Source: Nitrospirota bacterium (GTDB taxonomy: Bacteria > Nitrospirota > Thermodesulfovibrionia > Thermodesulfovibrionales > SM23-35). From it: a DNA stretch of 37,448 nt. How positions within the stretch are numbered: position 1 is the first letter of the stretch; the number at the start of each line of letters is the position of its first letter. Shown piece after piece: positions 2,316 to 29,833 of the stretch. The notes below the pieces were generated by a model. The model ran no database searches and was not told where the DNA came from. It saw only the letters and a program-made list of their open reading frames with translations. The position numbers were made by a program, and so were the translations under genes. The stretch is taken from contig JACAFE010000038.1 of assembly GCA_013388435.1 (NCBI GenBank), positions 1 through 37,448 on the forward strand, read 5' to 3'.

Positions 2316-4175
2316 TTAACGTATTGAGTTCAATGAATTTAGTCTTTGAATCACAATTGAATTTGAAGGGTTAATTTCTCTGGCTTTCAAATACATTGTT
2401 CTCGCATCCTGAAAATCCTGTTTGGCAAAAAAAGCATCTCCCATTGTTATATAAAAATTAGTTTTTTGAGGTACATTTTTAACTTTGTAAGCTGCCTCTG
2501 TTATTATTTCGTTCCACACCCATTTTTTCGGCATTTCATATTTTCTGATAATCTCGGAATTTTCAGGACTTTCTCTAACAAATATCAATGAATTATTATC
2601 CATATACACAAGTAACCATTCAGGATCATTCATTATAAATGGAATAATTGGAATCAGATTGCCTGTAAAATCATTAACAGAATAAGTTATTATAAAGTTA
2701 ATATTATAAACTTTCATAAACGCTTGCCATTCAGGAATATCTCCAAACTGCTGTAAATTTGCACTAAATATCTTGGAATTCTGGAAAAAAACTTCTTCTA
2801 TCAAACCTCTTCCATCCACAAAAACCTTATAATCAGGATATAATGCCCAAATCAGATATCCACCCCATACATATGGATTCAACATGTTACCATGAATCCT
2901 GTTATTTTTTAGAAATTCAGCAGAACCCTTAGGATATCTTTCCCACACAATGCCCTTGTTAATTATTCTGGTGTTTGCAAGAACTATAAACATAACAATC
3001 GATAACAAAGTTATCAATAAAGGCTGTAGAGATCCTAATTTAAATTTTTCAGAGAAACTCCTTAGTCTTTCAATATAATGTAATTTATTATTTAGAGCTC
3101 TCATAGTTTTTATTGCATAACGTACTGTAAATGGTGCATATATGGTTGCAAAAAAAGGTATTGTTCTTGCCGATGTAACACTCATATAAAGAAAAAATAA
3201 TAATATCACTAAATCTGTTATATCTATGCTTTTGAAATTTATAATCACAAAGAACATACAAAATATTATTAAAAAAATATATGTAATAATTTCCTGGTTA
3301 TAGAAACCCGCGGAAAGGAAAATAAAAGGTGATCTCGACTCAACAATTGATTCCATGTATTTACTTTTTTGAAACTCGATTAATACAGAAAATACATCCC
3401 ATTTATTTGGATTTAAAATTGTTATTAAAATAGAGAGAAAACAAACTACAATAAGTATCCTTAATTGTTTAGAAGGCAGACTGTTTCCGGTTTTACATTT
3501 GAAGAATTTAATACTCTCGCAGATAATATATATAGATAGAATTATAACGCCTATAAAAACTCCACCATGCATGTTTGCCCACAGAAGCATTATAAATGGA
3601 ATCGGCAATAGATATAATAAATTTGAATTTCGGTGTCCTGAGTTGATTTCCTTACATGAAGACCGAGAAATGTTCATTTCAGCCATTCTGAACCCTTCGA
3701 ATAAATAAACAAGAAGAAATACAAATAAGAAAGAAAATAGCTGTGGTCTTTCACCGGTGAAATTACTCAATATTATAACTGATGGAATAATCAAGATTAT
3801 GGAACTATAGAAATCAGCCCCTTCTCTTCTAATCGCCCTATAAACAAAATAAATGAGCACCGTGAGAATCGTTGCTCTAAAAAATATAATTCCCTGAAGC
3901 CCGGCCAACTTGTAAATTAAAAAAAATATTATCTGGGAAAGCCAGTACGATGTTAAAATGAATTTAATTCTTTTGGATTCAGGATTTAAAGGGTCCTTAG
4001 GTAAAGTAGTGTATGCAAAAGGATCTGTCTCGGGCAAAGAGCCATTAGTATAAATATATTCACCTGTTTTCAAATGCCACCAGAAATCAGGGTCCCATAT
4101 CCGTCCAGCGAACATCCCGAATATAAATATTAGAATAAGCGAAATAAATATAAATTTCGTAAATCTTAATATCAT
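2316..4175 (-). CDS. Polytopic membrane protein with DPDFWWHL motif and C-terminal TPR
   Basis: 619 aa. The first transmembrane segment is followed at residues 28-35 by DPDFWWHL and then a KTGEYIYTNG...DPFAYTTLP stretch. That resembles a family of large, mostly uncharacterised bacterial membrane proteins whose layout (acidic residues in the first external loop, about ten membrane spans) recalls GT-C glycosyltransferases. Many hydrophobic spans fill residues 10-420. A soluble segment follows (about 425-560), and a TPR-like pair of helices lies at 565-612 (FAKQDFQDARTMYLKAREIN). The start overlaps the upstream hydrogenase protease gene by 4 bases (ATGA), implying translational coupling. Together with the glycosyltransferase and acetyltransferase upstream it suggests envelope glycan work. 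Function is inferred, not shown. Confidence 0.8.
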   Translation of the reverse strand: MILRFTKFIFISLILIFIFGMFAGRIWDPDFWWHLKTGEYIYTNGSLPETDPFAYTTLPKDPLNPESKRIKFILTSYWLSQIIFFLIYKLAGLQGIIFFRATILTVLIYFVYRAIRREGADFYSSIILIIPSVIILSNFTGERPQLFSFLFVFLLVYLFEGFRMAEMNISRSSCKEINSGHRNSNLLYLLPIPFIMLLWANMHGGVFIGVIILSIYIICESIKFFKCKTGNSLPSKQLRILIVVCFLSILITILNPNKWDVFSVLIEFQKSKYMESIVESRSPFIFLSAGFYNQEIITYIFLIIFCMFFVIINFKSIDITDLVILLFFLYMSVTSARTIPFFATIYAPFTVRYAIKTMRALNNKLHYIERLRSFSEKFKLGSLQPLLITLLSIVMFIVLANTRIINKGIVWERYPKGSAEFLKNNRIHGNMLNPYVWGGYLIWALYPDYKVFVDGRGLIEEVFFQNSKIFSANLQQFGDIPEWQAFMKVYNINFIITYSVNDFTGNLIPIIPFIMNDPEWLLVYMDNNSLIFVRESPENSEIIRKYEMPKKWVWNEIITEAAYKVKNVPQKTNFYITMGDAFFAKQDFQDARTMYLKAREINPSNSIVIQRLNSLNSIR

Positions 4176-4639
4176 TTCGAGACTTCAATTTCTTTTAATA
4201 CCAATTCAATAATTCTCGGGATCTGCGCTTCAATTACCGGAGTTAATTCAATTCCGGGACTTATATCCTCTGGTTTAATCCCAATAAATACCACTTCCTT
4301 TGGTGCATTTCCAAACATCTCAGCATTTTTTAAAACATGTGTAAAATCAATATCATGAGCAGAAAATAGCTGACATGCATTACCTTCCAGAAGGTCTTTA
4401 CCGGTAAAATGGTAAATAGACCCTGGTTGATCATCTATTAACACAGCATCTATAACAATAACCTTAGTTCTATCTTCAATATAATAGACGAGCTTCATAC
4501 CAAGTGTACCACCATCAAGAACTTCAACATTCTCGGGCAATGACATATTCATTATCCTTTGAACAACATGCACACCTATTCCTTCATCTTTCAAGAGTAA
4601 ATTTCCAAGACCTAATATCAAAATAGGTTTCTTATCCAT
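4172..4639 (-). CDS. Hydrogenase maturation protease (HybD/HycI family), canonical copy
   Basis: 155 aa. This family removes the C-terminal peptide from the large subunit of [NiFe] hydrogenases after nickel insertion. The N-terminal motif GLGNLLLKDEGIG is present. The three nickel-sensing residues known from E. coli HybD (Glu16, Asp62, His93) have counterparts at Glu19, Asp42 (LDGGT) and His95 (SAHDIDF). The C-terminal GIKPEDISPGIELTP matches the family. It lies 63 bases after a divergent paralogue and overlaps the next gene by 4 bases. No hydrogenase subunit or Hyp gene is in the window, so its substrate is encoded elsewhere or the protein has another target. Confidence 0.92.
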   Translation of the reverse strand: MDKKPILILGLGNLLLKDEGIGVHVVQRIMNMSLPENVEVLDGGTLGMKLVYYIEDRTKVIVIDAVLIDDQPGSIYHFTGKDLLEGNACQLFSAHDIDFTHVLKNAEMFGNAPKEVVFIGIKPEDISPGIELTPVIEAQIPRIIELVLKEIEVSK

Positions 4640-4702
4640 TGAACCTTATCCTCTTCAATATAATCACTTTATGATTCAGTATTTACACCCGGAAAATAAT
4701 TA

Positions 4703-5179
4703 TTAAATATTAATTTCTTTCAAAACCATATCAATAATAACAGGTATTTTTGATTGAAGCACCGGAGACAACTCTATTTTAAGCTTTCCATCCTTATCTC
4801 CTGTATCATATGGTTCTATGCCTATTACGATCAGCTCTTCCGGAGCTGTTCCCATAATACATGTTGTATTATAATAATCCATAAATTCAGCTTCAGCTGG
4901 TGATTTCAATGCATTTTTTCTTTTTTCAATAAATTCATTTCCATTAAACCGGTATATCATTCCCGGTTCTCCTTCAGCTTTTATAGCATCTATAACTATA
5001 ACTTTTTTTCTATTTTCGATCATATACACTATATCAAAAGCTGCTATTCCACCTTCTATTATCTCAACATTAGGAGGCAATGACATAGTTTTTAGTCTTT
5101 CTACTACGTGAAGTCCCACCCCATCGTCTCTGAAAAGTAGATTACCGATTCCAAGAATCAGAACAGGTTTTTTATCCAT
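4703..5179 (-). CDS. Hydrogenase maturation protease paralogue lacking Ni-ligand residues
   Basis: 158 aa, clearly paralogous to the downstream gene (same MDKKP start, GIGNLLFRDDGVG motif, and GxxPEE...VIGIEP...ELSPV ending). The ligand positions differ. Glu16 of HybD is replaced by Asp19, a change also seen in active relatives. Asp62 becomes Glu42 (IEGGI). The SxH region holding His93 is replaced by a stretch with no histidine between about residues 83 and 110. It may have another specificity, cleave a non-hydrogenase substrate, or be inactive. The start is supported by GGAGG 11 bases upstream. It probably shares a transcript with the acetyltransferase upstream (69-base gap). Confidence 0.85.
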   Translation of the reverse strand: MDKKPVLILGIGNLLFRDDGVGLHVVERLKTMSLPPNVEIIEGGIAAFDIVYMIENRKKVIVIDAIKAEGEPGMIYRFNGNEFIEKRKNALKSPAEAEFMDYYNTTCIMGTAPEELIVIGIEPYDTGDKDGKLKIELSPVLQSKIPVIIDMVLKEINI

Positions 5180-17515: not shown

Positions 17516-18103
17516 TTATTTTGAAAGCTTATCTCCTGTTTCTACACATGCTTCATGCAGTGCATTGCTAAGAATTTTTGCAAGAGAGAGAAATGATTTT
17601 TCCTGAAGTTCAATCTTTTTATTTATTCTCGAGCGTTCAATTTCGTTTCCTTCAGGAGAGATTAACACATAATCAAATAATAATTCTCCATAAGAAATAT
17701 TTTCAGAATCAAATCTCTCAAATCTTTTCAAATCAATCTCAAGGGTATAATACCCTTCCTGAGAAGTATATGATGTTTTAACTTCTTTAAATATTTTCAG
17801 GGATGAAATATAATCTTTCATTACTTTTTTAATAATCTCCTGCGGAGAAGCCTCCCATTTTGAGTATTTTGATATTTCCATTTCATATGGCGAGGTTCTA
17901 TAGACAATATATGGTTGTGATAGATGTCTTGGTGCATTAACAACAATCATGACCAGCTTTTCAGAGAATTTACCTTTGAAATCCTTTTCAGTAAAAGGGT
18001 AATTCATATTGATGCTGTAAATTTTTGTTTGGGGCATAGTACATGCATTCATTAATAAGATTATGGAACAAATTATTAAAAGGCATATATTCTTTTTTTT
18101 CAT
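17516..18103 (-). CDS. Mla/PqiC-like ABC-transport auxiliary lipoprotein
   Basis: 195 aa. The signal peptide ends in a lipobox, LMNAC (about 17-21). The body fits the ABC_trans_aux family (PqiC-like), with KIYSI near the start, APRHLSQPYIVYRTSPYEMEIS, the W-x-x-SPQEIIKKVMKDY block and a GDKLSK ending. PqiC-like lipoproteins sit in the outer membrane and work with MCE proteins. It is the last gene of the seven-gene unit, starting one base after the MlaD stop. Outer-membrane sorting is inferred. Confidence 0.85.
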   Translation of the reverse strand: MKKKNICLLIICSIILLMNACTMPQTKIYSINMNYPFTEKDFKGKFSEKLVMIVVNAPRHLSQPYIVYRTSPYEMEISKYSKWEASPQEIIKKVMKDYISSLKIFKEVKTSYTSQEGYYTLEIDLKRFERFDSENISYGELLFDYVLISPEGNEIERSRINKKIELQEKSFLSLAKILSNALHEACVETGDKLSK

Positions 18104-18104
18104 T

Positions 18105-18980
18105 TTATTCTCCCCTTCCCTCTTTATAAATAAGACTCCATGGTTTATTTTTTATTTCCTGTAAAACTTCCTGGAGTTCCTCGGTTGTTCTTGTCATAGA
18201 GTTAATTAATTGATCAATATTTTTTGACTGGTGTATAACTGTTCTGTCAACTGATTTTGAAGTCTTTTCTATGCTTTTCATCATATCACCAGCTTTATCT
18301 ATATTTTCGCGTGCTTTCTTAAGCAATTGTGAAACATCACCTTTATTGTCCTTAAGAAGACTTTCAATCTCATTTAAAACTTTTTCAAGTCTTTCAGTTG
18401 TATTCTTAAGACTGGCTGCGACTTTATCAATGTTTTCTGAGCTTGTTACTATTGCCTTATTTGTATTGCCAATAATATTCTCAATACCTTTTATATTTCT
18501 TTCAGTAAATATTTTATCAACATCATTTATAAGCTTATCAACAGATAAAGAAAGATTATTTAATTTTGCCATAAGAACATCCATCTGCATATACTCTTCT
18601 GAAGGAATAACAGAACCAACCTTCATAATTTCATTAGTTGTATCTTTTACAGAAAGAAGCATATAAATATCTCCAACAAAACCTATCTGTGTTATATAAG
18701 CCTTTGTTCCTTTGTATAGAACAGTACCTTTTTTCAACCCTATTTCTATAGTAACAGGTTCTCCCGGAGAAACCGGAGGTTTAACACTTAGAACCCTGCC
18801 AACTTTTACTCCACCGAGCTTTACCTGAGCACCTGTTTCAAGCCCTGCAGCATTCAATACTTTCACATAGTAAATGTCAAACTTTTCGAACAATTGACCG
18901 CCACCTATTAGTATTATGAAAATACTGAGTATTGCAATAGCTGAGACAACTATTATTCCAGCCTTAAATTCTTCTTTCAT
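18105..18980 (-). CDS. mlaD: MlaD-like MCE substrate-binding protein
   Basis: About 291 aa. One N-terminal membrane anchor (8-27) is followed by an MCE domain (about 35-110: YYVKVLNAAGLETGAQVKLG, then GVKVGRVLSV). A long helical tail with Asp/Asn-rich heptads covers roughly 130-280, longer than in E. coli MlaD and more like MCE proteins with an extended coiled coil. It would form a periplasmic hexamer that moves phospholipid between membranes. The ATG at 18980 is chosen because GGAG lies 6 bases upstream and it begins just after the MlaF stop. A TTG at 18995 is the longer alternative. Confidence 0.93.
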   Translation of the reverse strand: MKEEFKAGIIVVSAIAILSIFIILIGGGQLFEKFDIYYVKVLNAAGLETGAQVKLGGVKVGRVLSVKPPVSPGEPVTIEIGLKKGTVLYKGTKAYITQIGFVGDIYMLLSVKDTTNEIMKVGSVIPSEEYMQMDVLMAKLNNLSLSVDKLINDVDKIFTERNIKGIENIIGNTNKAIVTSSENIDKVAASLKNTTERLEKVLNEIESLLKDNKGDVSQLLKKARENIDKAGDMMKSIEKTSKSVDRTVIHQSKNIDQLINSMTRTTEELQEVLQEIKNKPWSLIYKEGRGE

Positions 18981-18981
18981 A

Positions 18982-19767
18982 TTACTCTCCTGCAATTACC
19001 CTGAAATAATCATCAGGTGAATATTTTTCCTCCTCGGGTTGCCTTTCAAGAAACATTCTGATTCTTGGATTATCAGAATTCTTCAACTCATTGAGTGTTC
19101 CTGTAAAAATCACATATCCTTTGTCAAGCATAATAATATAATCAGCTATTTTGAATACACTTGGCAATTCATGAGTTACAACAATGATTGTCATTCTAAA
19201 AACCTTATTCAATTTAATGATAAGTTCATCAAGCCCCGCAGCGGTAACAGGGTCAAGTCCTGCTGAAGGCTCATCGAAAAAAAGCATTTCAGGATCTAAA
19301 GCAAGTGCCCTCGCAAGCCCTGCTCTTTTTTTCATTCCTCCCGAAAGCTGTGAAGGATAGAAAGAATCAAAACCCGAAAGCCCAACAAGGTCAAGTTTCA
19401 TCCTGACCATTATTTCAATAGTTGATTCTTTAAGTTTTGTATGTTCGTGTAAGGGCAAAGCAACATTTTCAAGAATTGTCATTGAATTTAGCAAGGCAGC
19501 TCCCTGAAAAAGTATACCCATTTTTTTCCTTATTTCATTCATTTGATCTTCGTTCAATTTTGTTATATCATTTCCATTTATAATTATTTTTCCCGATGTT
19601 GGCTTCAGCAATCCTATAAGGTGCTTTAACAAAGTGCTCTTTCCACATCCACTTCCTCCGAGTATTACTGTAATCGAACTCTTCGGGATGGAGAAAGATA
19701 TATTTTTTAATATCTCTCTATCGCCATAATGTGTTATCAGGTTCTCTACTTCTATTACTTTTTCCAT
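18982..19767 (-). CDS. mlaF: MlaF-like ABC transporter ATPase
   Basis: About 261 aa cytoplasmic ATPase of the lipid transporter. Walker A LGGSGCGKST, signature LSGGMKKRAGLARALALDP, Walker B MLFFDEPSAGLDP and switch His in VVTHEL are all present. The GGMKKRAGLARALALDP form is characteristic of MlaF/TTG2A proteins. The ATG at 19767 begins one base after the MlaE stop and gives the usual N-terminus (MEKVIEVENLITHYG). A longer form from 19815 would add 16 residues overlapping mlaE and looks artefactual. Confidence 0.96.
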   Translation of the reverse strand: MEKVIEVENLITHYGDREILKNISFSIPKSSITVILGGSGCGKSTLLKHLIGLLKPTSGKIIINGNDITKLNEDQMNEIRKKMGILFQGAALLNSMTILENVALPLHEHTKLKESTIEIMVRMKLDLVGLSGFDSFYPSQLSGGMKKRAGLARALALDPEMLFFDEPSAGLDPVTAAGLDELIIKLNKVFRMTIIVVTHELPSVFKIADYIIMLDKGYVIFTGTLNELKNSDNPRIRMFLERQPEEEKYSPDDYFRVIAGE

Positions 19768-19768
19768 T

Positions 19769-20575
19769 TCAGGTGAAATAATAAAATAGTGCTGTGAAAA
19801 ATAAGTCAGATACAATTACAAGAAATATGGATGCAACAACAGCTGATGTAGTTCTTAAGCCAACTTCCTCAGCTCCACCTTTTACCATAAAACCCTGATA
19901 TACACCAACTATTGTTATCACCACCCCAAATGCCCATGCTTTCATGAGCCCGGTTAGTACATCTTTAACCAGAAGAGCGTTTACAGTTTGATTAAAATAA
20001 TTTAAAGGATGTATTTCAAGAATAGTCGTTGATAATACAAATCCACCGAATATTCCAATCAAATCGGAAAAAACCGTAAGTGCAGGAACCATTATCATCA
20101 GTGCTACAAGTTTTGGAACAACAATAAATCTGACCGGATTTATTCCCATGCTTATCAATGCATCGATCTCTTCTGCAGCTTTCATTGAACCAATCTCCGC
20201 AGCATATGCAGAGCCGCTTCTTCCCGAGACAATTATTGCCGTAATTATAGGTCCGAGCTCTCTCGTAAGAGAAACTCCAACAAGATTTGCAACATAAATT
20301 AAAGCTCCCACTTTCTTAAGTTGATAAGCAGCCTGAAAAGCAAGAATAACACCTATAAAAAAAGATATTACAGATATTATAGGAACTGAATTATATCCAG
20401 CCTTAACCATCTCGTTAATACAGGCTTTAACCCTGATCGGGAATCCCTTAAACGGGGAAATAAAAGCCCAGTAAAAGATCTCATTTATAATATGTGAAAT
20501 ATTATGTATGCTTATTCTGACAGGTTTTGTTTTACTGCCTATGACTTCTATGAAATTCCTATATTCCGAAGGCAT
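19769..20575 (-). CDS. mlaE: MlaE-like ABC permease
   Basis: About 268 aa with five to six membrane segments. The MlaE family signature is clear: GRSGSAYAAEIGSMKAAEE, IDALISMGINP, then RFIVVPKLVALMIMVP. It forms the inner-membrane channel with MlaF and MlaD. The ATG at 20575 (MPSEYRNF) is preferred because AGGA lies about 9 bases upstream. A TTG at 20611 would add 12 residues. The start overlaps the STAS gene by 17 bases, so the two are translationally coupled. Confidence 0.94.
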   Translation of the reverse strand: MPSEYRNFIEVIGSKTKPVRISIHNISHIINEIFYWAFISPFKGFPIRVKACINEMVKAGYNSVPIISVISFFIGVILAFQAAYQLKKVGALIYVANLVGVSLTRELGPIITAIIVSGRSGSAYAAEIGSMKAAEEIDALISMGINPVRFIVVPKLVALMIMVPALTVFSDLIGIFGGFVLSTTILEIHPLNYFNQTVNALLVKDVLTGLMKAWAFGVVITIVGVYQGFMVKGGAEEVGLRTTSAVVASIFLVIVSDLFFTALFYYFT

Positions 20576-20891
20576 CTTCAAATGTCCTGTAAATCTCAAA
20601 CACCCTGTCAAGTCTCGAAAATCTGAATATTTCCATTATATTCTCGGGTAATCCGTAGAAAAATAATCTGCTACCGGATGTTCTTATCGCCTTAAGTCCT
20701 TCAACAAATGTGGCAATACCTGAGCTGTCAATGTAAGTAACATCAGAAAAATCAACACAAACACACTGATTTCTTGAATTTTTTATTAAAGACAGTAGAA
20801 TTTCCCGGAGTTCAGGAGAAGTATGCATATCTATATCACCCGTGATTTTTAGCTTTTTATTCCCTTTAATTTCTATTATCTCGGTTTTCAT
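20559..20891 (-). CDS. STAS-domain protein, anti-sigma antagonist or MlaB-like
   Basis: 110-aa single STAS domain. LKITGDIDMHTSPELREIL at 14-32 and VDFSDVTYIDSSGIATFVE at 46-64 match SpoIIAA/RsbV-type proteins, including the phosphorylatable serine in DSSG (Ser56/57). Its gene overlaps the preceding HATPase kinase by 4 bases and the following MlaE permease by 17. By position and length it could be the MlaB subunit that binds MlaF, and by neighbours it is an anti-sigma antagonist. It may be both, with phosphorylation controlling the transporter. That is inference. Confidence 0.88.
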   Translation of the reverse strand: MKTEIIEIKGNKKLKITGDIDMHTSPELREILLSLIKNSRNQCVCVDFSDVTYIDSSGIATFVEGLKAIRTSGSRLFFYGLPENIMEIFRFSRLDRVFEIYRTFEDAFGI

Positions 20892-21295
20892 TTCAAATGT
20901 TTAATAAGAATCAGTCTGTTTCCTTTTTTCTTTTTTTCATCAAGCATAAAAACATCGAAAACTCTTTTTATAAAATGTATTCCAAGTCCTCCCGGTTTTA
21001 TATCATCCAGGTTTCTTCCTTTAAGCTTGTTTATATCGGCTTTTATTCCGTTATCTTCGAGAATAACAGTAATTTGAATTGGAGATAATTTATATTTTAA
21101 TATAATCTTCTTTGTTGTATCGCCTTTATATGCATGCCTGATTATATTTGTACATGCCTCATCAACCGCGAGTTTTAAATCATTCACTATTGTTTCATTA
21201 ATTCCGTATATCTCTCCTATCTTTGAAGTAATACTCCTCACTATAGATAGAAATTTTGGATGAGAAGGTATTGTTATTTTAAATGAATCTTTCAC
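20888..21295 (-). CDS. RsbW/SpoIIAB-like serine kinase (HATPase_c_2)
   Basis: 135 aa GHKL ATPase. The N-box reads DEACTNIIRHAY (45-56), followed by DNGIKAD (81-87) and PGGLGIHFIKRVFD (101-114) for ATP binding. Such proteins phosphorylate a STAS partner and bind a sigma factor or another target. It overlaps both neighbours by 4 bases (ATGA type), between a PP2C phosphatase and a STAS protein, which completes a classical partner-switch cassette. No sigma factor is encoded nearby, so the output is open. Confidence 0.92.
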   Translation of the reverse strand: MKDSFKITIPSHPKFLSIVRSITSKIGEIYGINETIVNDLKLAVDEACTNIIRHAYKGDTTKKIILKYKLSPIQITVILEDNGIKADINKLKGRNLDDIKPGGLGIHFIKRVFDVFMLDEKKKKGNRLILIKHLK

Positions 21296-22578
21296 AAACA
21301 GGACACTTCCATAATTGTAATATCATCAGCCATTTCTGTATTTTTTGAATATTCATTAATAAGGCCTGTTATTCTTTCAATCAAATTTTCAATATTTCGA
21401 TTTTCCCTGATAAACTCCAGAATAGTATTAAACCCTATTCGCTCTCCTGAAATATTCTTTGCTTCAAATACTCCATCTGTAAGCATAATAAGCCTATCAC
21501 CGTTCTTTAAAATAACCCTATTCTCATCAAAGTCAGTCTCAATAATTCCAAGTGGAGGTCCAGATGACATTTCCAGAACATATACTTCATCTTTCTTTAT
21601 CATTATGCAGGGAGGATGCCCTGCAACCGAAATAACTGCTTCACCATCTTCGACATCAACAATAAGATATATAGCGGTAAGAAACATTCCTCTTGGCGCA
21701 CCGGATAGTACTTTATTCAATTTATTCATAACATCCGAAGGGGAATTAATTCCACGAGAAATATACCTGAAATCACTTATTATCTTTGCCATATATAAAG
21801 CAGCAGAAACACCTTTACCCGAAACATCACCAATAAAAATACCTGCTTTATTTATGTCAGGTTCTACAAAATCATAAAGGTCTCCTCCAACATGTCTTGC
21901 GGGTATATTTATAGCAGACACTCTAATTCTTCCTTTTTCAAAAACAGGTTTTTCAGGCAAAAAACTTTTTTGCAATGTTGCGGCAATTTCGAGTTCTTGT
22001 TTAATTCTTTCTTTTTCAAGAGTTTCAGCATGGTATAGTGCATTTTCTATTGCAGTTGCAAAATGTCTTGTGAGTATACTTAATATTTCAAGGTCATAAT
22101 CTTCTTTTTGAGGATTAATTATTTCGGCAACTCCTATCAAACCCCGTCTTCCGATTAAAGGAGCAGCAATAAGTGATTTTGTTTCAAAACCTGTCATTTT
22201 ATCCACGTCATGAAAAAATCTTTTATCTTTTTTTACATCCTTTATTACAACAATTTGTTGATTTTGAGCAACCCATCCTGCTATACCCTGTCCCATATCA
22301 AGAGTTATTTTTTTCTTTAACAATTCAGATGTTTCCTCTTCACCACATATTGCAACTTCAAACTCAAGTTTATTATTATTCTTATTATAGATAAGTATGG
22401 AACATGCATCAGCACTTAAAATTTCCTTTGCTTTCTCCATAACAAGAGACATCAGTTCACGGATATCCAGTGTTGATGATATAATAGAAGAAACTTCTGT
22501 AAGAATTCTTAAGGTTTCAACTCTTTTTTCGAGATTTCTAATGTACTCTTTATTATTTGATTTTCTAACCATTTCCAA
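21292..22578 (-). CDS. GAF-PP2C (RsbU/SpoIIE-type) phosphatase
   Basis: 428 aa soluble sensor phosphatase. A short coiled coil (10-30) leads to a GAF domain (about 35-185, with GQGIAGWVAQNQQIVVIKDV). A linker helix (LEKERIKQELEIAATLQKSF) precedes the PP2C/SpoIIE domain (about 200-428). Metal-ligand motifs are VGGDLYDF, FIGDVSGKGVSAALYM and MLTDGVFEAKN. It would dephosphorylate the STAS protein in response to whatever GAF senses. It is the first gene of the unit. The start may be TTG at 22578 or ATG at 22572; neither has a decisive ribosome site. Confidence 0.95.
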   Translation of the reverse strand: MEMVRKSNNKEYIRNLEKRVETLRILTEVSSIISSTLDIRELMSLVMEKAKEILSADACSILIYNKNNNKLEFEVAICGEEETSELLKKKITLDMGQGIAGWVAQNQQIVVIKDVKKDKRFFHDVDKMTGFETKSLIAAPLIGRRGLIGVAEIINPQKEDYDLEILSILTRHFATAIENALYHAETLEKERIKQELEIAATLQKSFLPEKPVFEKGRIRVSAINIPARHVGGDLYDFVEPDINKAGIFIGDVSGKGVSAALYMAKIISDFRYISRGINSPSDVMNKLNKVLSGAPRGMFLTAIYLIVDVEDGEAVISVAGHPPCIMIKKDEVYVLEMSSGPPLGIIETDFDENRVILKNGDRLIMLTDGVFEAKNISGERIGFNTILEFIRENRNIENLIERITGLINEYSKNTEMADDITIMEVSCL

Positions 22579-22690: not shown

Positions 22691-23173
22691 TCAAGCTATT
22701 TCAAGATAGGTTCCATTAATTACAACCTTATAATTAAGAGTTTCAAGAAGTATCATTACTCTATCAGAGCCTTTAAGTTCTTTTTCAAATATTCCGTAAA
22801 AATTTTTTAAAGGACCTTCCCTGATAAGAACCTTTTCTCCTTTTTTAAATTTGTGTGGTTTTATAATCACAAAACTATCTTCATTCATATTTTCTTTTAT
22901 AGCTTTAATTATTTCTTCGTGAACCACTATTGGATTTTGCCTACCAACAATATAGCGAACACCCCGTGTATATGTAATCATATGAGAATATTTATCTTTA
23001 TCAAAATCAGCAAATATATAACAGGGGAACAAAGGTTCAATGACTTCTGTCAATTTATTGTTTTTGAACTTTTTTATTCTCAACCTGGCATTGATTACTT
23101 CTATCCCGGCATTCTTAAGATGGCTCGAAACTGTATCTTCTTTGCCTGATTTCACATAAATTGCATACCACAT
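22691..23173 (-). CDS. NusG paralogue (RfaH/UpxY/LoaP-type antiterminator)
   Basis: 160 aa. An N-terminal NGN domain (WYAIYVKSGKEDTVSSHL, EPLFPCYIFADFD, RGVRYIVGRQNPIVV) is joined to a C-terminal KOW domain (FKKGEKVLIREGPLKNFYGIF). Housekeeping NusG normally sits beside secE and rplK, whereas specialised paralogues sit in polysaccharide loci and help RNA polymerase through long operons. Here it is the last gene of the exopolysaccharide operon, 4 bases after the O-antigen ligase. Any ops-like recruitment site is not identified. Confidence 0.9.
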   Translation of the reverse strand: MWYAIYVKSGKEDTVSSHLKNAGIEVINARLRIKKFKNNKLTEVIEPLFPCYIFADFDKDKYSHMITYTRGVRYIVGRQNPIVVHEEIIKAIKENMNEDSFVIIKPHKFKKGEKVLIREGPLKNFYGIFEKELKGSDRVMILLETLNYKVVINGTYLEIA

Positions 23174-23177
23174 AATA

Positions 23178-24602
23178 TTATATTAACTCTTTTGAGTTTT
23201 CATAGTTTGCATAGTTTACAAAGTTTTCTTCGTTTTTATTTTGATTTACACTTAACGCATGACATTCTATATCATGTGGTTCTATTTTTGATGAAGCTGC
23301 CAGTATTGCCATTATAAAAGCCAATAACAATAAGTTTGAGGTTATATGAAGATTAAAATCAAATATACTATGGACAATAATAGTCATGACAGAAGAAACG
23401 AGTGAAATTCTGATGATACCCAATTCACCTCGCCAGATTCCTTTCAAGCAATGGATAATATAAAAATAGAGAAATATTGCTAATAAAATAATACCTGCTA
23501 TGCCAGCTTCAAATAAAAATTCAACATAATCATTATGAGCATGATCGTAAATTACAGTTGAAGGTTTTGATGAATAAACTGGAAAAACATTTACAAAAGT
23601 ACCTAATCCGCTTCCAGTTAAAATAAACTCTTTAGCTCCTTTGCATGTATCAGTCCAGATAGTAAATCTTTCCTCGGTAGTTAGATCTGTGCGATAAAAT
23701 CTTTCTATTACAGGATCAACACCAAGATATATTAAATAACTACTTAGAACCATGATAAAAATTAAAAGAGCTATTTTTTTATTGTGTCTAAATTTTTCAT
23801 TTACTATGAAAGCAGAAAAAACAGTAATTGAAATTATAAAACTTATTATGCCTGCTCTTGATAGAGACATAAAAACAGAAACTGTCATTATCACTGCAAA
23901 GAAACCAAATAAAATTTGTTTCTCTTTGCTTTTTCGTATAAAAGCTATACCAAGAGTTGCAGGAATCAACATATCAATAAAGCCTGCATAATGGTTCCTA
24001 TTAACAAAAGGTCCAAAGGGACTTCCCGAGGTTACTTCTCTTAACCAGTAAATTTTACCATTCCATGTTGCCATTTGAATTAAAGCAAAAAAAGCCAGAA
24101 TAAATCCAAATACACTTAAAATCTTTATACTTCTTTCAATAGATAATCTGTCACGGGCCAGAAAATAAACTGGAATAAAAACAGCTATACTGTACAATAT
24201 TTGCTGAATATTTGATATTGTTCTATATGGGTTAAGGCTTATCGGGATAAAACTGCTTTTTGTTAACGAGTAAAAAGTATAAAGTTCATATGCTTTCGGT
24301 GAAATAATTTTAAGTATTTGTTCTGGCAATGGCAAAATTTGAATAAATGCATATAAAGGAAGAGCGCAGATTGCGGCAATAATTTTTACATCATCAAAGC
24401 TGATTTTTCTTATGTTGCAATCTGCAAACTCAGAATCTTTTCTGCATGAAATAATAATCCAGATTACAAAAAGTGTTAGTATAAAAATTCCAGCAATTGA
24501 CGACGACCATATCTCTACAGCTCCAAAACTTAATGCAGAAAAAATAATTATTGACAGAATAATATAAATTATTTTTGAGTAAGAATTATCTGGTCTATCC
24601 AT
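23178..24602 (-). CDS. O-antigen ligase/Wzy-type membrane polymerase
   Basis: 474 aa with about ten to twelve membrane segments and a large external loop. The Wzy_C/WaaL-family region includes the NRNHYAGFIDMLIPATLG stretch and the DHAHNDYVEFLFEAGIAGI motif at its periplasmic face. Such proteins polymerise or ligate undecaprenyl-linked glycans. Its start overlaps the TPR/jelly-roll gene by 34 bases. A hydrophilic Asn-rich tail follows the last span. Ligase and polymerase cannot be told apart from sequence; in an operon with Wza and Wzc, a polymerase role is more likely. Confidence 0.88.
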   Translation of the reverse strand: MDRPDNSYSKIIYIILSIIIFSALSFGAVEIWSSSIAGIFILTLFVIWIIISCRKDSEFADCNIRKISFDDVKIIAAICALPLYAFIQILPLPEQILKIISPKAYELYTFYSLTKSSFIPISLNPYRTISNIQQILYSIAVFIPVYFLARDRLSIERSIKILSVFGFILAFFALIQMATWNGKIYWLREVTSGSPFGPFVNRNHYAGFIDMLIPATLGIAFIRKSKEKQILFGFFAVIMTVSVFMSLSRAGIISFIISITVFSAFIVNEKFRHNKKIALLIFIMVLSSYLIYLGVDPVIERFYRTDLTTEERFTIWTDTCKGAKEFILTGSGLGTFVNVFPVYSSKPSTVIYDHAHNDYVEFLFEAGIAGIILLAIFLYFYIIHCLKGIWRGELGIIRISLVSSVMTIIVHSIFDFNLHITSNLLLLAFIMAILAASSKIEPHDIECHALSVNQNKNEENFVNYANYENSKELI

Positions 24603-25816
24603 ACACTCCCGCTTATTTTATTATCAAGTTTTTGTGACCTATCTCTTTTTATCATTATAGTTAACGCATTGCATGTGTTTGGAACTTTGAAGTCAATTAA
24701 TAATTCTTTCCAGAAATTAGTTCCGGTTACAACTTCTGAATTAACATTTAATTCCTTACAGTCATGTCCTGTAATGTTAAAATAAATTCCATTTGTGGTA
24801 GTAATTTTATTTGTCTTTATATTTGCTTTTAATCTATAAGCTGCTCCTGGTTTAACCATAACAACCTGGGAAGCAAGTGTAATCCCGAGATTTTCTGTTC
24901 CATTAAAATCAATTCCGAGAGAACGTTTTCCATGTATATGAATGTCATTATCTATATAAATATCCACTCCTTTAGCCTCATTAATTTTCCAGTCAAAACC
25001 ACCTCTTAACATTTTAAGTTCAAAGCTATTATTCCATATTTCTGAAGCATTTTCATTTTCCGATTTTTGGAATTTTGCTGAAATGAATTTATCCCAGATT
25101 TCTTTTGCTTCTTCATAATAATGTTCTGATATTAAAAAATCAGTATATTTAAGAATTAATTCATCTTCAACATTCTGTTTATATAAGTTTTTCCAGACAT
25201 TTTTAGCATCATTTATTCTTTTGGTAGAAATTAAATAGAGCAAATAATTTTTGTGATAAGAATAATTGTATGGTAAAAGTACATTAATTATATCATCAGA
25301 ATTAACTGGCAATTTATAAAGTAAATCATAAACAGTTTGTTGAGCCCCGGGATTAAGAATTATAAATTGCTTAAAATTTTGTAACGCATCTTTAATGTTA
25401 TTGTTATTTAAATAAAAAAGACCTGCTTCCCATATTATTTGAGGATTATTAGCATTGAGAGCAACAGCCCTTTTAAGCGTTTCACCAGCTTGTAAAATTT
25501 GTCCTTGTGTTTTATAAATATTTGCAAGATCAAGCCAGCAGCCGCCCTGCAGAGGATTCCTTTTTAATGATTCAAAATAATATTTTTTGGCTTTTTCCAT
25601 ATTTATCTGGTAGATGTCGTACTGATAAAATCTTCCGAGAAGATAATAATAAGTCGCATTGTCTCTATCAAATGAAATAGCAGAAGAAAGTCCTTTTTCA
25701 TCTATTTTTCTTAAAACCATGAAACCTAAAAGCTGAGAAATAATAATTGAAAGAATAAAAAGATAAAGGGGAATGATTATTGAGAGAATTAAAATACAGC
25801 TTTCATTTCTTTTCAT
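24569..25816 (-). CDS. Membrane-anchored TPR protein with C-terminal jelly-roll domain
   Basis: 415 aa. An N-terminal membrane anchor (9-33) is followed by several TPR helices (about 50-270; for example YYFESLKRNPLQGGCWLDLA and AGETLKRAVALNANNP). A beta-rich domain occupies about 280-413 (FDWKINEAKGVDIYIDNDIH, HGKRSLGIDFNG, VKPGAAYRLKANIKT, GSVWIDQIIL). That pattern is typical of carbohydrate-binding jelly rolls. It overlaps the kinase gene by 14 bases. A periplasmic scaffold that touches the polymer is plausible; the exact role is unknown. Confidence 0.78.
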   Translation of the reverse strand: MKRNESCILILSIIIPLYLFILSIIISQLLGFMVLRKIDEKGLSSAISFDRDNATYYYLLGRFYQYDIYQINMEKAKKYYFESLKRNPLQGGCWLDLANIYKTQGQILQAGETLKRAVALNANNPQIIWEAGLFYLNNNNIKDALQNFKQFIILNPGAQQTVYDLLYKLPVNSDDIINVLLPYNYSYHKNYLLYLISTKRINDAKNVWKNLYKQNVEDELILKYTDFLISEHYYEEAKEIWDKFISAKFQKSENENASEIWNNSFELKMLRGGFDWKINEAKGVDIYIDNDIHIHGKRSLGIDFNGTENLGITLASQVVMVKPGAAYRLKANIKTNKITTTNGIYFNITGHDCKELNVNSEVVTGTNFWKELLIDFKVPNTCNALTIMIKRDRSQKLDNKISGSVWIDQIILTQK

Positions 25817-28037
25817 CAGTATAATAATGTCTGTAGTAATAATAGCTATATTTCATTGTTGACTGGTTTACTGAATTTAAAATTACCCCGAGTATTTTTG
25901 CGTTCACACCTTCAAGAATTCTTTTTGTTTCTTTTATATTATATTTTGCTGTTTTGCCTGAACGTACAATAATAATTACGCCATCAGTCTGATGACTTAC
26001 GATAAGCGGATCTGCTATGCCAAGCACAGGAGGAGTATCTACAATTATAAAATTAAAATCTGAATATATGTTCTGAATAAGATCTCGTAACCTGTATGAA
26101 CTCAACAATTCAGCAGGATTGGGCGGAATAGGTCCTGATGTAATTACATATAAATTCTCTATATTACAATGTTTTATTAATCCGTTATCTATTTCTGCAT
26201 TTCCTGATAAATAATTTGCCAATCCGATTGTGTTGTCAAGTTTAAATATTCTATGGAGTCTCGGTTTTCTCATATCTGCATCAATAAGAAGAACCTTAAA
26301 TCCTGATTGAGTAAGACTCACTGCTGTATTAACAGAAGTTGTAGTTTTACCCTCGCCTCTGTCAGGACTTGTAATCATCATTACTCGTGGCGGTTTTCCG
26401 CCGGAAGAAAGCAAAAGGAATGTCCTTATGGACCGATAAGCTTCTGATATTGGTAATTTAGAATCTTCATGAGATACATATTCAACCTGTAAAGGACTTT
26501 TTTCCTCAGAAAAATTTGGCACAATGCCAAGAGAAGGCATGTATGCCTTTTTTTCAACATCCTCAGGAGTCTTTATAGTATCATCAAGATACTCTGTAAA
26601 GAAAGCAAGCCCTATACCTCCAAATATACCTACAACTAAAGACAACATAATATTTAATGGCCAATTTGGCTTATAAGGCTTTTTAGGAATTTCTGCTCTG
26701 TCAAGTATTTGAATATTACTGGCAGTAAGGCTTGCTGAGACTCCTGTTTCTTTCAATCTCTGGAGCAAACCGTTGTATAATTCCTTGTTAGTATCAGCCT
26801 CTCTTTTTAGTATCTGATATTGTATTGCTCTTTCATTTAAACTCAAAGCTTCATTTTTAAGACTATTAAGTGCTGCCTTCAATTGATTTTCACGTTTGAC
26901 TGCTACTTCATAATCTTTTTTAACGCTTGAAATAATTCTTTTAGTCTCAATATCCATTTTCTTTTTTATTTGGTTAATCTGTTCCTGTAGCCTTATCATT
27001 TTAGGATAATCGGGTTTATAAATTTTGAGCATTTGATTATATTCAGCGTCAAGTGATACATAATTCTTTTTTAATTCCAGCATTAGAGGATTATTCATAA
27101 CCACTGAGCTTGATTCCTGCTCACCTGAATGCATTTCACGGCACAGAGCTTCTTTACTTATTCTTTCTGCAGTGGCTGTTGTTAATTCAGAGGAAAGTTC
27201 TGAAAGTCTTTTTGTTATTATATTCTGGTTATCAGTTGCTTTACCTTTGCTATCTTCAGTTTTATCAAGAAAAATAATGCCATTTTTTGCAGCGTATTCA
27301 TTTAGTTTTTCTTCAGCCTGTTCAACCTTTGCTTTCATTTCATCAAGCTGTTTTTCAAGCCATGTTTTTGCTTGATTTGTTGCCTGAAATTTTGATTCAA
27401 TATTCAATTCAATAAATGCATCTCCAATCGCATTTGAAACCTTTGCTGCAAGATAGGGATCATTTGATTGGAAGCTTACATTTACAAGCCTTGATTTTTG
27501 AACAGGTGAAACTTCAATTCTGTTAATAAACGAGTCAATTAATTCGGGAGAGACCTTATCATCTTCAAGAGAGCTATTCTGTTTGTCAAGCAAATTAGAT
27601 TCTGTATTTTGTTTTTTATTTTCATCAAAGCTTGAAAATTCAGGATAAGAAAAAAGATTAAGAGAGTGCACTACTCTTTTAGCAAGATTGCGAGATTTAA
27701 GTACTTTATATTGAGTTTGATAATAGTCATCTTCTATTTTCTCAAGATTTACAACATCTTTAAAAGAAAGTATATTTGGATTTTCTTTGTCAATTTTAAT
27801 TGTAATTGTTGATTTATATACTGGTTTTTTAATAAAAGTGCCTATAACTACAGTTGTTACAACAGCAATAAAAAAAGTTATAACAATCCATTTGCGTCTT
27901 AATACTACATGAAGATAGTCCCTTAGATGAACTTCTTCTTCATTTTGTGGATAATAAATCTGTCCAGGGGTTGCAAGAGAATAGTCGCGGGGTTTATCAA
28001 GAGCTTTTTCTTTGTTTATTTCATTTTCTTCAGACAT
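25803..28037 (-). CDS. Wzc-like polysaccharide co-polymerase and tyrosine autokinase
   Basis: 744 aa. An N-terminal Wzz region with a membrane segment (about 52-72) is followed by a long periplasmic coiled coil (about 210-430), a GNVR-type region with the second membrane segment (IMLSLVVGIFGGIGLAFF), and a BY-kinase domain. Walker A SPDRGEGKTTTSVN lies near 557-570, Walker A' VLLIDADMRKP near 580-590 and Walker B FIIVDTPPVLGIADP near 660-675. The C-terminus holds seven tyrosines in KYSYYYYRHYYTD, the autophosphorylation cluster. It controls polymer length and export with the Wza-like protein encoded just upstream. Confidence 0.95.
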   Translation of the reverse strand: MSEENEINKEKALDKPRDYSLATPGQIYYPQNEEEVHLRDYLHVVLRRKWIVITFFIAVVTTVVIGTFIKKPVYKSTITIKIDKENPNILSFKDVVNLEKIEDDYYQTQYKVLKSRNLAKRVVHSLNLFSYPEFSSFDENKKQNTESNLLDKQNSSLEDDKVSPELIDSFINRIEVSPVQKSRLVNVSFQSNDPYLAAKVSNAIGDAFIELNIESKFQATNQAKTWLEKQLDEMKAKVEQAEEKLNEYAAKNGIIFLDKTEDSKGKATDNQNIITKRLSELSSELTTATAERISKEALCREMHSGEQESSSVVMNNPLMLELKKNYVSLDAEYNQMLKIYKPDYPKMIRLQEQINQIKKKMDIETKRIISSVKKDYEVAVKRENQLKAALNSLKNEALSLNERAIQYQILKREADTNKELYNGLLQRLKETGVSASLTASNIQILDRAEIPKKPYKPNWPLNIMLSLVVGIFGGIGLAFFTEYLDDTIKTPEDVEKKAYMPSLGIVPNFSEEKSPLQVEYVSHEDSKLPISEAYRSIRTFLLLSSGGKPPRVMMITSPDRGEGKTTTSVNTAVSLTQSGFKVLLIDADMRKPRLHRIFKLDNTIGLANYLSGNAEIDNGLIKHCNIENLYVITSGPIPPNPAELLSSYRLRDLIQNIYSDFNFIIVDTPPVLGIADPLIVSHQTDGVIIIVRSGKTAKYNIKETKRILEGVNAKILGVILNSVNQSTMKYSYYYYRHYYTDEKK

Positions 28038-28068
28038 AATATTTCTACCATATAATTTTTATTCCAAA

Positions 28069-29124
28069 CTACATCCCTGCTCCTAAAGATCCGGAACCAA
28101 AACTTATCATACCTCTAAGACTGCTAATAAAACCATTAAAGAAATTTTTTATTCCGCTTACAGGAACAATAATTATATCGTTATTTGCTAAAAGTATATC
28201 AGGAAGTTCGCCTTTTTTGACTGCGTCATAATCAATTCCTATGATATCTCTTTCGCCTCTACCATTATCTCTGAATATTCTTATATCGCTCAGCTTTGCT
28301 TCAGGTTTTAATCCTTTTGCTAAAGTAAGGGCTTGTATAATTGTAGTTTTTCCTTTTAACGGATAAGCTCCGGGTTCTTTTACAGCTCCATCAACAAAAA
28401 ATATTCCTCCTTCAGGTACATTAATTAAATCTCCAGAAAAAACAGGAACATTAAGTGCAAAATTACCCTTAATTAGCAATTCATCAAGATCAATTATAAT
28501 AGTGCTTGTTTGACCATCTGGTTTATCTTTATCAGCTGGACGTATAACATAACAAATATTGGAAGCAGTGTCTTTTAAACCTCCTGATACCATCAGCATA
28601 TCGAGCAAATATCTCTGACCTGTTACAGCATAAACCTGCGGATTTTTAACTGCACCAACTACTGAAATCCTCTGGCTATGATATTCTCTGACAAAAACAT
28701 TTACAACAGTTTCCTGGACATATTTTTCAAGTTTTTCTGCTATAAGTTTTTCAAGTTCAGATGTAGTTAAACCTTTTACTTTAATAATACCTATTAAAGG
28801 TAAAGCAATATCACCCTGTGAATTCACCCTTAATGTTTTCTTAATTTCTTCAACATTATAAGCCTCTATTTCAAGCAAGTCTTCGGGCCCAATGCGATAA
28901 TCGTCATTGGAAATGACTTTATTCGCAGAACTGGCGATTAACATGGCATTGAATTGTTCAGTTTTGTTTTTTGCAGAGATATCAATTGTTGAATATTTTT
29001 TAGCAGGTTGATCGCTGCTGCAACCGCAGAAAAATAAAAAAAGAAATGAAAGACTTATTAATAATGTTTTCTTTAAATAACAAAAAAAATAATTATTATC
29101 TGCTAAAGCTGTGAGGACTTGCAT
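28069..29124 (-). CDS. Wza-like polysaccharide export lipoprotein
   Basis: About 351 aa. A hydrophobic signal ends in a lipobox-like FCGC before SSDQP. A Poly_export domain (YRIGPEDLLEIEAYNVEEI, VNSQGDIALPLIGIIKVKG) and SLBB domains (ISVVGAVKNPQVYAV, VDGAVKEPGAYPL) follow. It would form the outer-membrane exit channel. The ATG at 29124 is chosen because AGAGG lies 7-8 bases upstream. A longer frame from 29193 lies inside the FecR-domain gene and lacks such support. The chosen start still overlaps that gene by 29 bases. Confidence 0.9.
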   Translation of the reverse strand: MQVLTALADNNYFFCYLKKTLLISLSFLFLFFCGCSSDQPAKKYSTIDISAKNKTEQFNAMLIASSANKVISNDDYRIGPEDLLEIEAYNVEEIKKTLRVNSQGDIALPLIGIIKVKGLTTSELEKLIAEKLEKYVQETVVNVFVREYHSQRISVVGAVKNPQVYAVTGQRYLLDMLMVSGGLKDTASNICYVIRPADKDKPDGQTSTIIIDLDELLIKGNFALNVPVFSGDLINVPEGGIFFVDGAVKEPGAYPLKGKTTIIQALTLAKGLKPEAKLSDIRIFRDNGRGERDIIGIDYDAVKKGELPDILLANNDIIIVPVSGIKNFFNGFISSLRGMISFGSGSLGAGM

Positions 29125-29833
29125 GTCCGTTTCCTCTAAATGCCTCAAAAGAAAGACCACCAACAATGGCAGAAAATCCTCCAAGTACAACAACAGGACC
29201 TAAATAAGAGCCAGAGCTTACAATGTGCGATGTTGCAGGAGTTGTTCCTTCTCCAATACCTGCAAAAAAGGTTTCACCATTTTCAATAAGTACATATCGT
29301 GAATTATGTCTTATCATTATCCTTCCTGAAAGGCTTCTTATAAAAGTACCCTGGTCATTACGAATCACCATCCCATAAATATTTGTTATATTCGGGGCTC
29401 CCGGACCTGCAACAAGAGAATAAATACCTCCAGCCTGTGTATTGATTAAAACTGTTGCTTCAGGTGTTAAAACAGAAAAATCAATATCAGAACTTACATT
29501 AAAAGATACAGTTCCTTTTGATAAGTTAACAATGTATTTTCTTTTTGAGGATTCTATAGATAATTCTGAATCTTTTGATATATCAATTCTTCCTCCCTCT
29601 TGAGTTGTAATATAAACGACGCCATCTTTTGTGCGGAGTTTTGTGTTTTTAAGCAAAGGATATACAGGTTGAATATTTTGCCAATTACCAGTTGATGATT
29701 CAATATAAACATTTCCAGAAGAGCGTATTTCGCCAAATGATAAACTTTCCTGAGCCTGGGAAGAATTAGAATAAACAAAACAGATATTAAGTATAAAAAA
29801 TATTAACAACAATGGGTTTAATTTTGGTAACAT
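29096..29833 (-). CDS. FecR-domain secreted protein
   Basis: 245 aa. A signal peptide (1-27, ending SSQA) precedes a FecR-like beta domain (about 35-200). Core repeats include GNVYIESSTGNWQNIQPVYP, LLKNTKLRTKDGVVYITT and VNLSKGTVSFNV. Near the C-terminus a hydrophobic Gly-rich stretch (SGSYLGPVVVLGGFSAIVGG) could anchor it. Such proteins recur at the head of exopolysaccharide loci; their role is unclear and it is not a FecR iron sensor here, having no TonB receptor or sigma gene nearby. AAGGAGG is 7 bases upstream. It is the first gene of the operon. Confidence 0.85.
   Translation of the reverse strand: MLPKLNPLLLIFFILNICFVYSNSSQAQESLSFGEIRSSGNVYIESSTGNWQNIQPVYPLLKNTKLRTKDGVVYITTQEGGRIDISKDSELSIESSKRKYIVNLSKGTVSFNVSSDIDFSVLTPEATVLINTQAGGIYSLVAGPGAPNITNIYGMVIRNDQGTFIRSLSGRIMIRHNSRYVLIENGETFFAGIGEGTTPATSHIVSSGSYLGPVVVLGGFSAIVGGLSFEAFRGNGHASPHSFSR

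Follow-up and report, generated by a model that had tools for sequence, protein, structure and literature searches.

A partner-switching gene cassette linked to an Mpc/Mla-like lipid transporter: a candidate phospho-switch on a proposed MlaB-type STAS subunit

In the standard topology of partner switching, the kinase holds the target and the STAS protein releases it. Among lipid transporters, E. coli MlaFEDB has a STAS subunit, MlaB. Its Thr52 lies centrally in the contact surface with MlaF, residues Tyr261, Leu265 and Leu266 of the MlaF tail contact MlaB, and retention of MlaF in the complex depends on MlaB (PMC7367683). The MlaB variant T52E weakens MlaF binding in pull-downs, while T52A keeps binding but much reduces the ATPase activity of the complex (PMC7367683). 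Phosphorylation disrupts STAS partner binding in known systems (cited in PMC7367683); phosphorylation of the STAS subunit was put forward in the MlaFB structure paper, whose authors knew of no evidence for its occurrence, and none was reported for E. coli MlaB itself (PMC7367683).

We analyzed a window of 37,448 nt (the whole stretch of DNA under study) from a Thermodesulfovibrionales (Nitrospirota) genome of 2.15 Mb that is 98% complete. Re-reading the sequence base by base yields the minus-strand array PP2C-kinase-STAS-mlaE-mlaF-mlaD-lipoprotein (Table 1), in which Pfam confirmed every gene identity of the original prediction. The overlaps it described were also found: 4 nt between the kinase and PP2C genes (GTGA), 4 nt between the STAS and kinase genes (ATGA), and 17 nt between the STAS gene and mlaE, whose ATG lies inside the STAS gene. 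The tight succession claimed for mlaF, mlaD and the lipoprotein gene is there as well, each gene following after a one-base gap.

Table 1. Genes of the array, with coordinates in the window.
Feature	Coordinates	Strand	Evidence and remarks
GAF-PP2C (SpoIIE/RsbU-type) phosphatase	21292..22578	-	GAF 2e-15, SpoIIE PF07228 9e-43 (Pfam); start TTG at 22578 or ATG at 22572
RsbW/SpoIIAB-type serine kinase	20888..21295	-	HATPase_c_2 PF13581 1.5e-22 (Pfam); GTG start
STAS protein, proposed MlaB-type subunit	20559..20891	-	STAS 5e-19 (Pfam); phosphosite D55-S56-S57-G58
mlaE permease	19769..20575	-	PF02405 2e-76; TIGR00056 above cut-off; ATG at 20575
mlaF ATPase with C-terminal extension YSPDDYFRVIAGE	18982..19767	-	ABC_tran 4e-34 (Pfam); ATG at 19767
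mlaD/MCE protein, 291 aa from ATG, long C-terminal part	18105..18980	-	MlaD 2.4e-9
PqiC/MpcA-like lipoprotein, lipobox LMNAC	17516..18103	-	ABC_trans_aux PF03886 9e-10

The permease scores 239.3 bits against TIGR00056 (cut-off 212.2), which places it in the MlaE family of lipid ABC permeases, and solved MlaF relatives match the ATPase at 2.5e-61. The MlaD protein also matches Mtu_fam_mce at 9e-19, under that model's cut-off, and the lipoprotein matches the pqiC model at 9e-6, again below cut-off. The operon thus holds the Mpc-type set of STAS, MlaE, MlaF, long MlaD and PqiC-like lipoprotein; the genome's one MlaC is encoded on another contig. The assignment of these genes to a lipid ABC transporter stands, but the label Mla needs correction: with its long MlaD, its PqiC-like lipoprotein and an operon lacking mlaC, the transporter resembles the chimeric Mla-Pqi (Mpc) type more than it does E. 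coli Mla.

Both regulatory enzymes have intact motifs. The PP2C protein carries the GGD, GDVSGKG, TDG and DD motifs of a SpoIIE-type phosphatase with its metal-binding aspartates; among 74 relatives, TDG is found in 74, DD in 73, GDVSGKG in 70 and GGD in 62. The kinase has the E-x3-N of GHKL serine kinases in its N-box EACTN, with E46 and N50 invariant in an alignment of 19 sequences (A1), and its RsbW-like match (2.6e-21) is under the equivalog cut-off. This array holds the genome's only SpoIIE phosphatase, only short RsbW-type kinase and only stand-alone STAS protein. At a related locus (L093), the kinase and STAS reading frames run together; the predicted fold of this read-through (pLDDT 93, pTM 0.70) has halves matching SpoIIAB/RsbW and RsbV/SpoIIAA respectively, and we do not count it towards kinase-STAS binding.

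The phosphorylatable DSSG motif that had been noted in the STAS protein occupies residues 55-58. In alignments, its Ser56 matches the SpoIIAA serine known to be phosphorylated as well as Thr52 of E. coli MlaB, and it is invariant in all 93 unique STAS loci. A second MlaB-type STAS protein in the genome would have told against the original prediction; we searched the 98%-complete genome for one, and the only other STAS domain proved to be C-terminal in a SulP transporter (C56) and was rejected as a candidate. The STAS gene, next to mlaE in the operon, is therefore the only MlaB candidate. Against the MlaB equivalog NF033618 its product reaches 23.9 bits where the cut-off is 90, and we regard it as MlaB-like in role only, not as an MlaB orthologue. 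Sequence and fold are nearer to RsbV/SpoIIAA/TM1442 (Z 17-19) than to P. aeruginosa MlaB (Z 13.3), and the protein has an extra C-terminal strand and helix, which are absent from E. coli MlaB. The VIA-align ranking of the STAS protein does not tell apart the MlaB and anti-anti-sigma roles.

To survey the linkage we collected loci by kinase similarity alone. Of 97 distinct kinase loci, from records of about ten phyla, 87 have mlaE within 5 kb, and we therefore reject coincidental neighbourhood as an explanation. Conservation of the order PP2C-HATPase-STAS-mlaE-mlaF-mlaD had been suggested as a check: among the other Thermodesulfovibrionales genomes, all 24 that encode an orthologue of the kinase show the order from PP2C to mlaE, and most have mlaF and mlaD as well. 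The arrangement recurs in many phyla. The linkage of the kinase and STAS genes to mla survives gene fusion, inversion and relocation. PP2C and kinase genes are fused in Rhodospirillales and Lindowbacteria, and at L136 they are placed after mlaD. Deltaproteobacterial loci read mlaFED-STAS, in one case with mlaC next, so that STAS occupies the place of MlaB; the kinase lies alongside in divergent orientation. At L129 a divergent kinase-PP2C pair stands beside mlaF-mlaE-mlaD-STAS-mlaC (MlaC 3e-47). Three genomes (L166-L168) have a STAS-mlaE pair without adjoining kinase, phosphatase or mlaF, the serine being kept, and a few kinase-STAS relatives (L116, L069, L070, L075, L076) lack a nearby mla gene. 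At L087, STAS, mlaE and mlaF are joined by read-through. The C-terminus of MlaE is on the periplasmic side, and we dropped the L087 single chain as a misleading model of the complex.

A further association concerns the C-terminal tail of MlaF. The hydrophobic tail motif occurs in 70 of 74 cassette MlaFs and in E. coli MlaF, but in only three of 30 STAS-less MlaFs from the same set of genomes, and those three match outside the tail position; at the other mlaE loci of these genomes, none of 37 has a comparable adjoining STAS gene. The tail of MlaF and the STAS protein thus tend to occur together.

The original prediction held that no sigma factor gene is nearby. None was found in the window, and a PF04542 search extended this to the genome, whose sigma factors are four RpoD-like proteins and FliA; no sigma factor of SigB/SigF size and type was found in the 98%-complete assembly. 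We therefore reject a sigma-factor output for this genome.

We consider it probable that the cassette is a partner-switching module dedicated to the Mpc/Mla lipid transporter, with the STAS protein as its MlaB-type subunit: phosphorylation at Ser56 would prevent MlaF binding, and the GAF phosphatase would undo the modification. The evidence supporting this reading is the overlapping array, the regulators unique in the genome, the missing stress-type sigma factor and the cross-phylum linkage; the STAS gene in the MlaB position (mlaFED-STAS-mlaC), the Brucella STAS-MlaE fusion and the MlaF tail tracking STAS; and the invariant Ser56 together with the E. coli data on MlaB Thr52 and the MlaF tail (PMC7367683). 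The earlier proposal that lipid transport is switched by phosphorylation of an MlaB-like subunit is thereby supported; STAS-MlaF binding, phosphorylation, the sign of control, the signal, and the transported lipid and its direction are what we infer. The unphosphorylated STAS protein would use its helical face to bind MlaF, C-terminal tail included, which would hold MlaF on MlaE and keep transport going. Ser56 lies centrally on this face, and its phosphorylation by the RsbW-type kinase would abolish MlaF binding so that transport drops; the kinase may also hold the STAS protein. A signal sensed by the GAF domain would lead the GAF-PP2C phosphatase to remove the phosphate and restore transport. 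MlaF would take the place of the sigma factor in partner switching, but as a partner of STAS.

Some observations sit less easily with a dedicated transporter switch, namely the kinase-less STAS-mlaE pairs that keep the serine and the kinase-STAS relatives without mla (e.g. L116). The latter, with L069, L070, L075 and L076, would suit a module that controls a non-transporter target (transcription or a second messenger) and shares the mla operon for co-expression, and the resemblance of the STAS protein to RsbV/SpoIIAA/TM1442, C-terminal strand and helix included, leaves room for such a plain anti-anti-factor role. We think this unlikely given a genome without a stress-type sigma factor, an mla linkage that fusion, inversion and relocation have not broken across phyla, a STAS protein that takes the place of MlaB or is fused to MlaE, and an MlaF tail that accompanies STAS.

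The standard topology, and a kinase linked to mla as tightly as STAS, would instead favor a kinase that binds and inhibits MlaF or MlaE and is removed by unphosphorylated STAS, which itself never joins the transporter. This seems very improbable: at L129 the mla operon contains the STAS gene but not the kinase gene, STAS-mlaE pairs without a kinase exist, and E. coli MlaB (PMC7367683) and Brucella MpcE (PMC12436622) put the STAS domain, not the kinase, on the transporter. Another unlikely reading is that the same players act with opposite sign or by tuning in place, STAS being always on MlaF and phosphorylation altering the ATPase rate or activating transport. By analogy with E. coli T52A, bound but inactive, serine phosphorylation could tune activity rather than binding; the weakened binding of T52E and the breaking of STAS partner binding by phosphorylation in known systems (PMC7367683) make us doubt this.

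No description of the cassette was found in the open-access full-text journal literature; as far as we searched, phospho-control has been suspected for the Mla pump family, with no kinase previously known. We give slightly better than even chances to the view that this is an undescribed class of envelope regulation spanning about ten phyla, in which a kinase and a phosphatase in the cytoplasm, through reversible phosphorylation of the STAS subunit, gate a lipid transporter between the membranes, an ABC ATPase replacing the sigma factor. The finding bears on the post-translational regulation of Mla-type transporters, for which a candidate kinase and a candidate phosphatase show genetic linkage to the transporter genes in many phyla. 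If the switch operates as proposed, a GAF-sensed signal would quickly switch the movement of lipids to or from the outer membrane, an ABC transporter would join the known partner-switching outputs, and an ancestral phospho-switch would have left its trace in the phosphosite of E. coli MlaB. The cassette is present, with its kinase and phosphatase encoded by a single fused gene, in a cultured strain, Terasakiella pusilla DSM 6293, which makes the idea directly testable with few purified proteins.

Among described systems, Brucella abortus Mpc shares the order STAS-MlaE, MlaF, long MlaD and PqiC-like lipoprotein in an operon without mlaC; there STAS is fused to MlaE, whereas here the genes are separate with a 17-nt overlap, and the consulted passages of that report describe no kinase or phosphatase, in contrast to the dedicated pair found here (PMC12436622). 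The transporter is thus Mpc-like, not a copy of Brucella Mpc. E. coli MlaFEDB shares the Ser/Thr at the STAS phosphosite, the hydrophobic MlaF tail and the MlaE and MlaD homologues, but its MlaB is a shortened STAS protein encoded last in mlaFEDCB (PMC7367683). SigB/SigF switching (RsbU-RsbW-RsbV, SpoIIE-SpoIIAB-SpoIIAA) shares the PP2C phosphatase, the GHKL serine kinase and the STAS substrate with DSSG; the sigma factor that is the kinase's usual target is absent here, and the apparent target is an ABC transporter. The partner switches SypE/SypA, SiaA-SiaD and BtrU/V/W likewise put these parts to use outside sigma-factor control, but what they govern is biofilm, cyclic-di-GMP or secretion rather than a lipid ABC transporter.

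The seven genes of the cassette lie where the original prediction had placed them, all on the minus strand, and the window sequence bears out their overlaps of 4, 4 and 17 nt, followed by one-base gaps. Pfam and NCBIfam assign the regulator genes to a GAF-SpoIIE phosphatase, an RsbW-like kinase and a STAS protein, and the transporter genes to MlaE, MlaF, MlaD/MCE and a PqiC-like lipoprotein, in which a lipobox (LMNAC) is present. The kinase (EACTN) and phosphatase (GGD/GDVSGKG/TDG/DD) motifs are intact as read from the sequence, as is the STAS DSSG motif. A putative NusG-like gene lies 112 nt before the phosphatase gene, between the cassette and an exopolysaccharide cluster; its product may set read-through of both.

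Features in the window and at loci from relatives or the wide genome survey (L; positions local to each locus)
Sequence	Positions	Strand	Feature
Window	4172-5179	-	Two tandem paralogues resembling hydrogenase maturation proteases (by eye)
Window	17516-22578	-	Cassette
Window	22691-23173	-	Putative NusG-like gene, 160 aa (by eye)
Window	23178-29833	-	Exopolysaccharide cluster
L058	2685-3520	+	Second kinase-STAS pair, divergent, a few kb from cassette
L166, L167, L168	around 3050-4200		STAS-mlaE pairs with DSSG serine; no adjoining kinase, phosphatase or mlaF
L176	4143-5450	+	MlaF of STAS-less Mla locus, degenerate C-terminal GGDEF (6.5e-6)
L192	4348-5625	+	MlaF of STAS-less Mla locus fused to C-terminal GGDEF domain (E 6e-38)

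The source assembly (2.15 Mb, 98% complete; the window is contig C21) encodes one SpoIIE phosphatase, one stand-alone STAS protein and one short RsbW-type kinase, all in the cassette; weaker HATPase_c_2 matches belong to long reading frames (about 370-650 aa). No separate MlaB-type STAS gene, which would have spoken against the original prediction, was found elsewhere in this genome, whose second STAS domain forms the C-terminal part of a SulP transporter. Two of its three MlaE loci are outside the cassette and have no STAS gene. The sigma-70 family, named by eye, comprises four RpoD-like proteins (440-510 aa) and one FliA-like protein adjoining FlhG/FlhF-like genes, and thus offers no obvious candidate for a standard sigma-type output.

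The kinase gene shows dedicated linkage to mla genes. Its alignment, a query containing no mla sequence, was scanned against 84 980 species genomes and yielded 80 loci; together with the relatives, and with duplicates removed, these gave 97 distinct kinases. A STAS gene accompanies 93 of them, and mlaE is within 5 kb in 87, where chance would give about 1% (our own estimate, from two or three mlaE genes per 2-3 Mb genome). By record title, the loci come from Nitrospirota, KSB1/Calditrichota, Nitrospinota, Planctomycetota, Desulfobacterota, Rhodospirillales, Omnitrophota, Auribacterota, Tectomicrobia, Lindowbacteria and Verrucomicrobia, although many are metagenome bins and single labels may be wrong; one (L139) is from a cultured strain, Terasakiella pusilla DSM 6293. 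About 57 of 395 sampled Nitrospirota genomes have a kinase below 1e-34 by family profile.

An orthologous kinase (E below 1e-30) occurs in 24 of 100 relatives, and every one of these keeps the predicted order PP2C-kinase-STAS-mlaE; in most, mlaF, mlaD and the lipoprotein gene come next. Weaker kinases of the relatives are in stand-alone modules or in large fusions, mostly away from mla (loci L069-L076); the single exception, L058, has a second kinase-STAS pair, possibly an upstream tier.

Several observations strongly suggest that the STAS protein is a transporter subunit. The counterpart of Ser56 in an alignment with E. coli MlaB is Thr52, a residue near the middle of the MlaB-MlaF interface at which a phosphomimetic weakens MlaF binding (PMC7367683). 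Tyr261, Leu265 and Leu266 of the E. coli MlaF C-terminal tail lie between MlaB and MlaF (PMC7367683), and the cassette tail matches it (window, YSPDDYFRVIAGE; E. coli, YPAGDYHADLLPGS). In counts that are descriptive, the loci not being phylogenetically independent, Ser56 is kept in 93/93 distinct STAS proteins; a simple Tyr/Phe-hydrophobic motif occurs in 70 of the 74 distinct MlaFs from cassettes and in three of 30 STAS-less MlaF paralogues of ordinary length from the same genomes (all three outside the tail position); and a comparable STAS gene adjoins mlaE at none of the 37 non-cassette loci sampled. At one of these loci (L204), a weak, distant STAS-like frame without DSSG lies about 2.2 kb away. 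STAS-mlaE pairs without adjoining regulators also occur, in three genomes (L166, L167, L168), and these too keep the serine. The window STAS scores 23.9 bits against an MlaB equivalog cut-off of 90, and by sequence and predicted fold is nearest TM1442, RsbV and SpoIIAA; we therefore consider it MlaB-like in role and not an MlaB orthologue. E. coli MlaB lacks the C-terminal strand and helix that the window STAS has.

On the most economical reading, the kinase and MlaF would share one STAS face, competing for it or acting on it in turn. Unphosphorylated STAS would keep MlaF on MlaE, phosphorylation of Ser56 by the kinase would release MlaF, and the GAF-PP2C phosphatase, on receiving a signal, would reset the STAS protein. 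Such phospho-control, and its sign, are inferred from the E. coli MlaB mutants and partner-switch logic. A kinase-STAS read-through chain is predicted to fold with high local confidence, a figure that covers the local fold of that single chain.

In the literature searched, no kinase or phosphatase acting on an Mla/Mpc STAS subunit was found to be described, and the MlaFB structure paper leaves significant MlaB phosphorylation in cells to be determined (PMC7367683). The circuit is new as a variant, its parts all being of known kinds. MlaF-GGDEF fusions at STAS-less loci (L192, degenerate in L176; MlaF is similarly long in L189, L193, L201 and L202) suggest a second route linking Mla ATPases to signalling.

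The linkage to mla is kept at rearranged loci. Phosphatase and kinase form one GAF-SpoIIE-HATPase protein in Rhodospirillales and Lindowbacteria, and lie downstream of mlaD at one locus (L136). Five deltaproteobacterial loci (L123, L129, L135, L140, L155) have an mlaF-mlaE-mlaD-STAS unit, STAS last, with a divergent kinase adjoining. The one examined further, L129, has its phosphatase gene with the kinase gene and a true mlaC (PF05494, 3e-47) after the unit; this is the gene set of E. coli mla, but with the STAS gene in the place of mlaB. In Brucella Mpc, STAS is fused to MlaE and followed by MpcF, a 331-aa MpcD and a PqiC-like MpcA (PMC12436622). Apart from that fusion, this order matches STAS-mlaE-mlaF-mlaD-lipoprotein in the window, whose transporter is best named Mpc-type.
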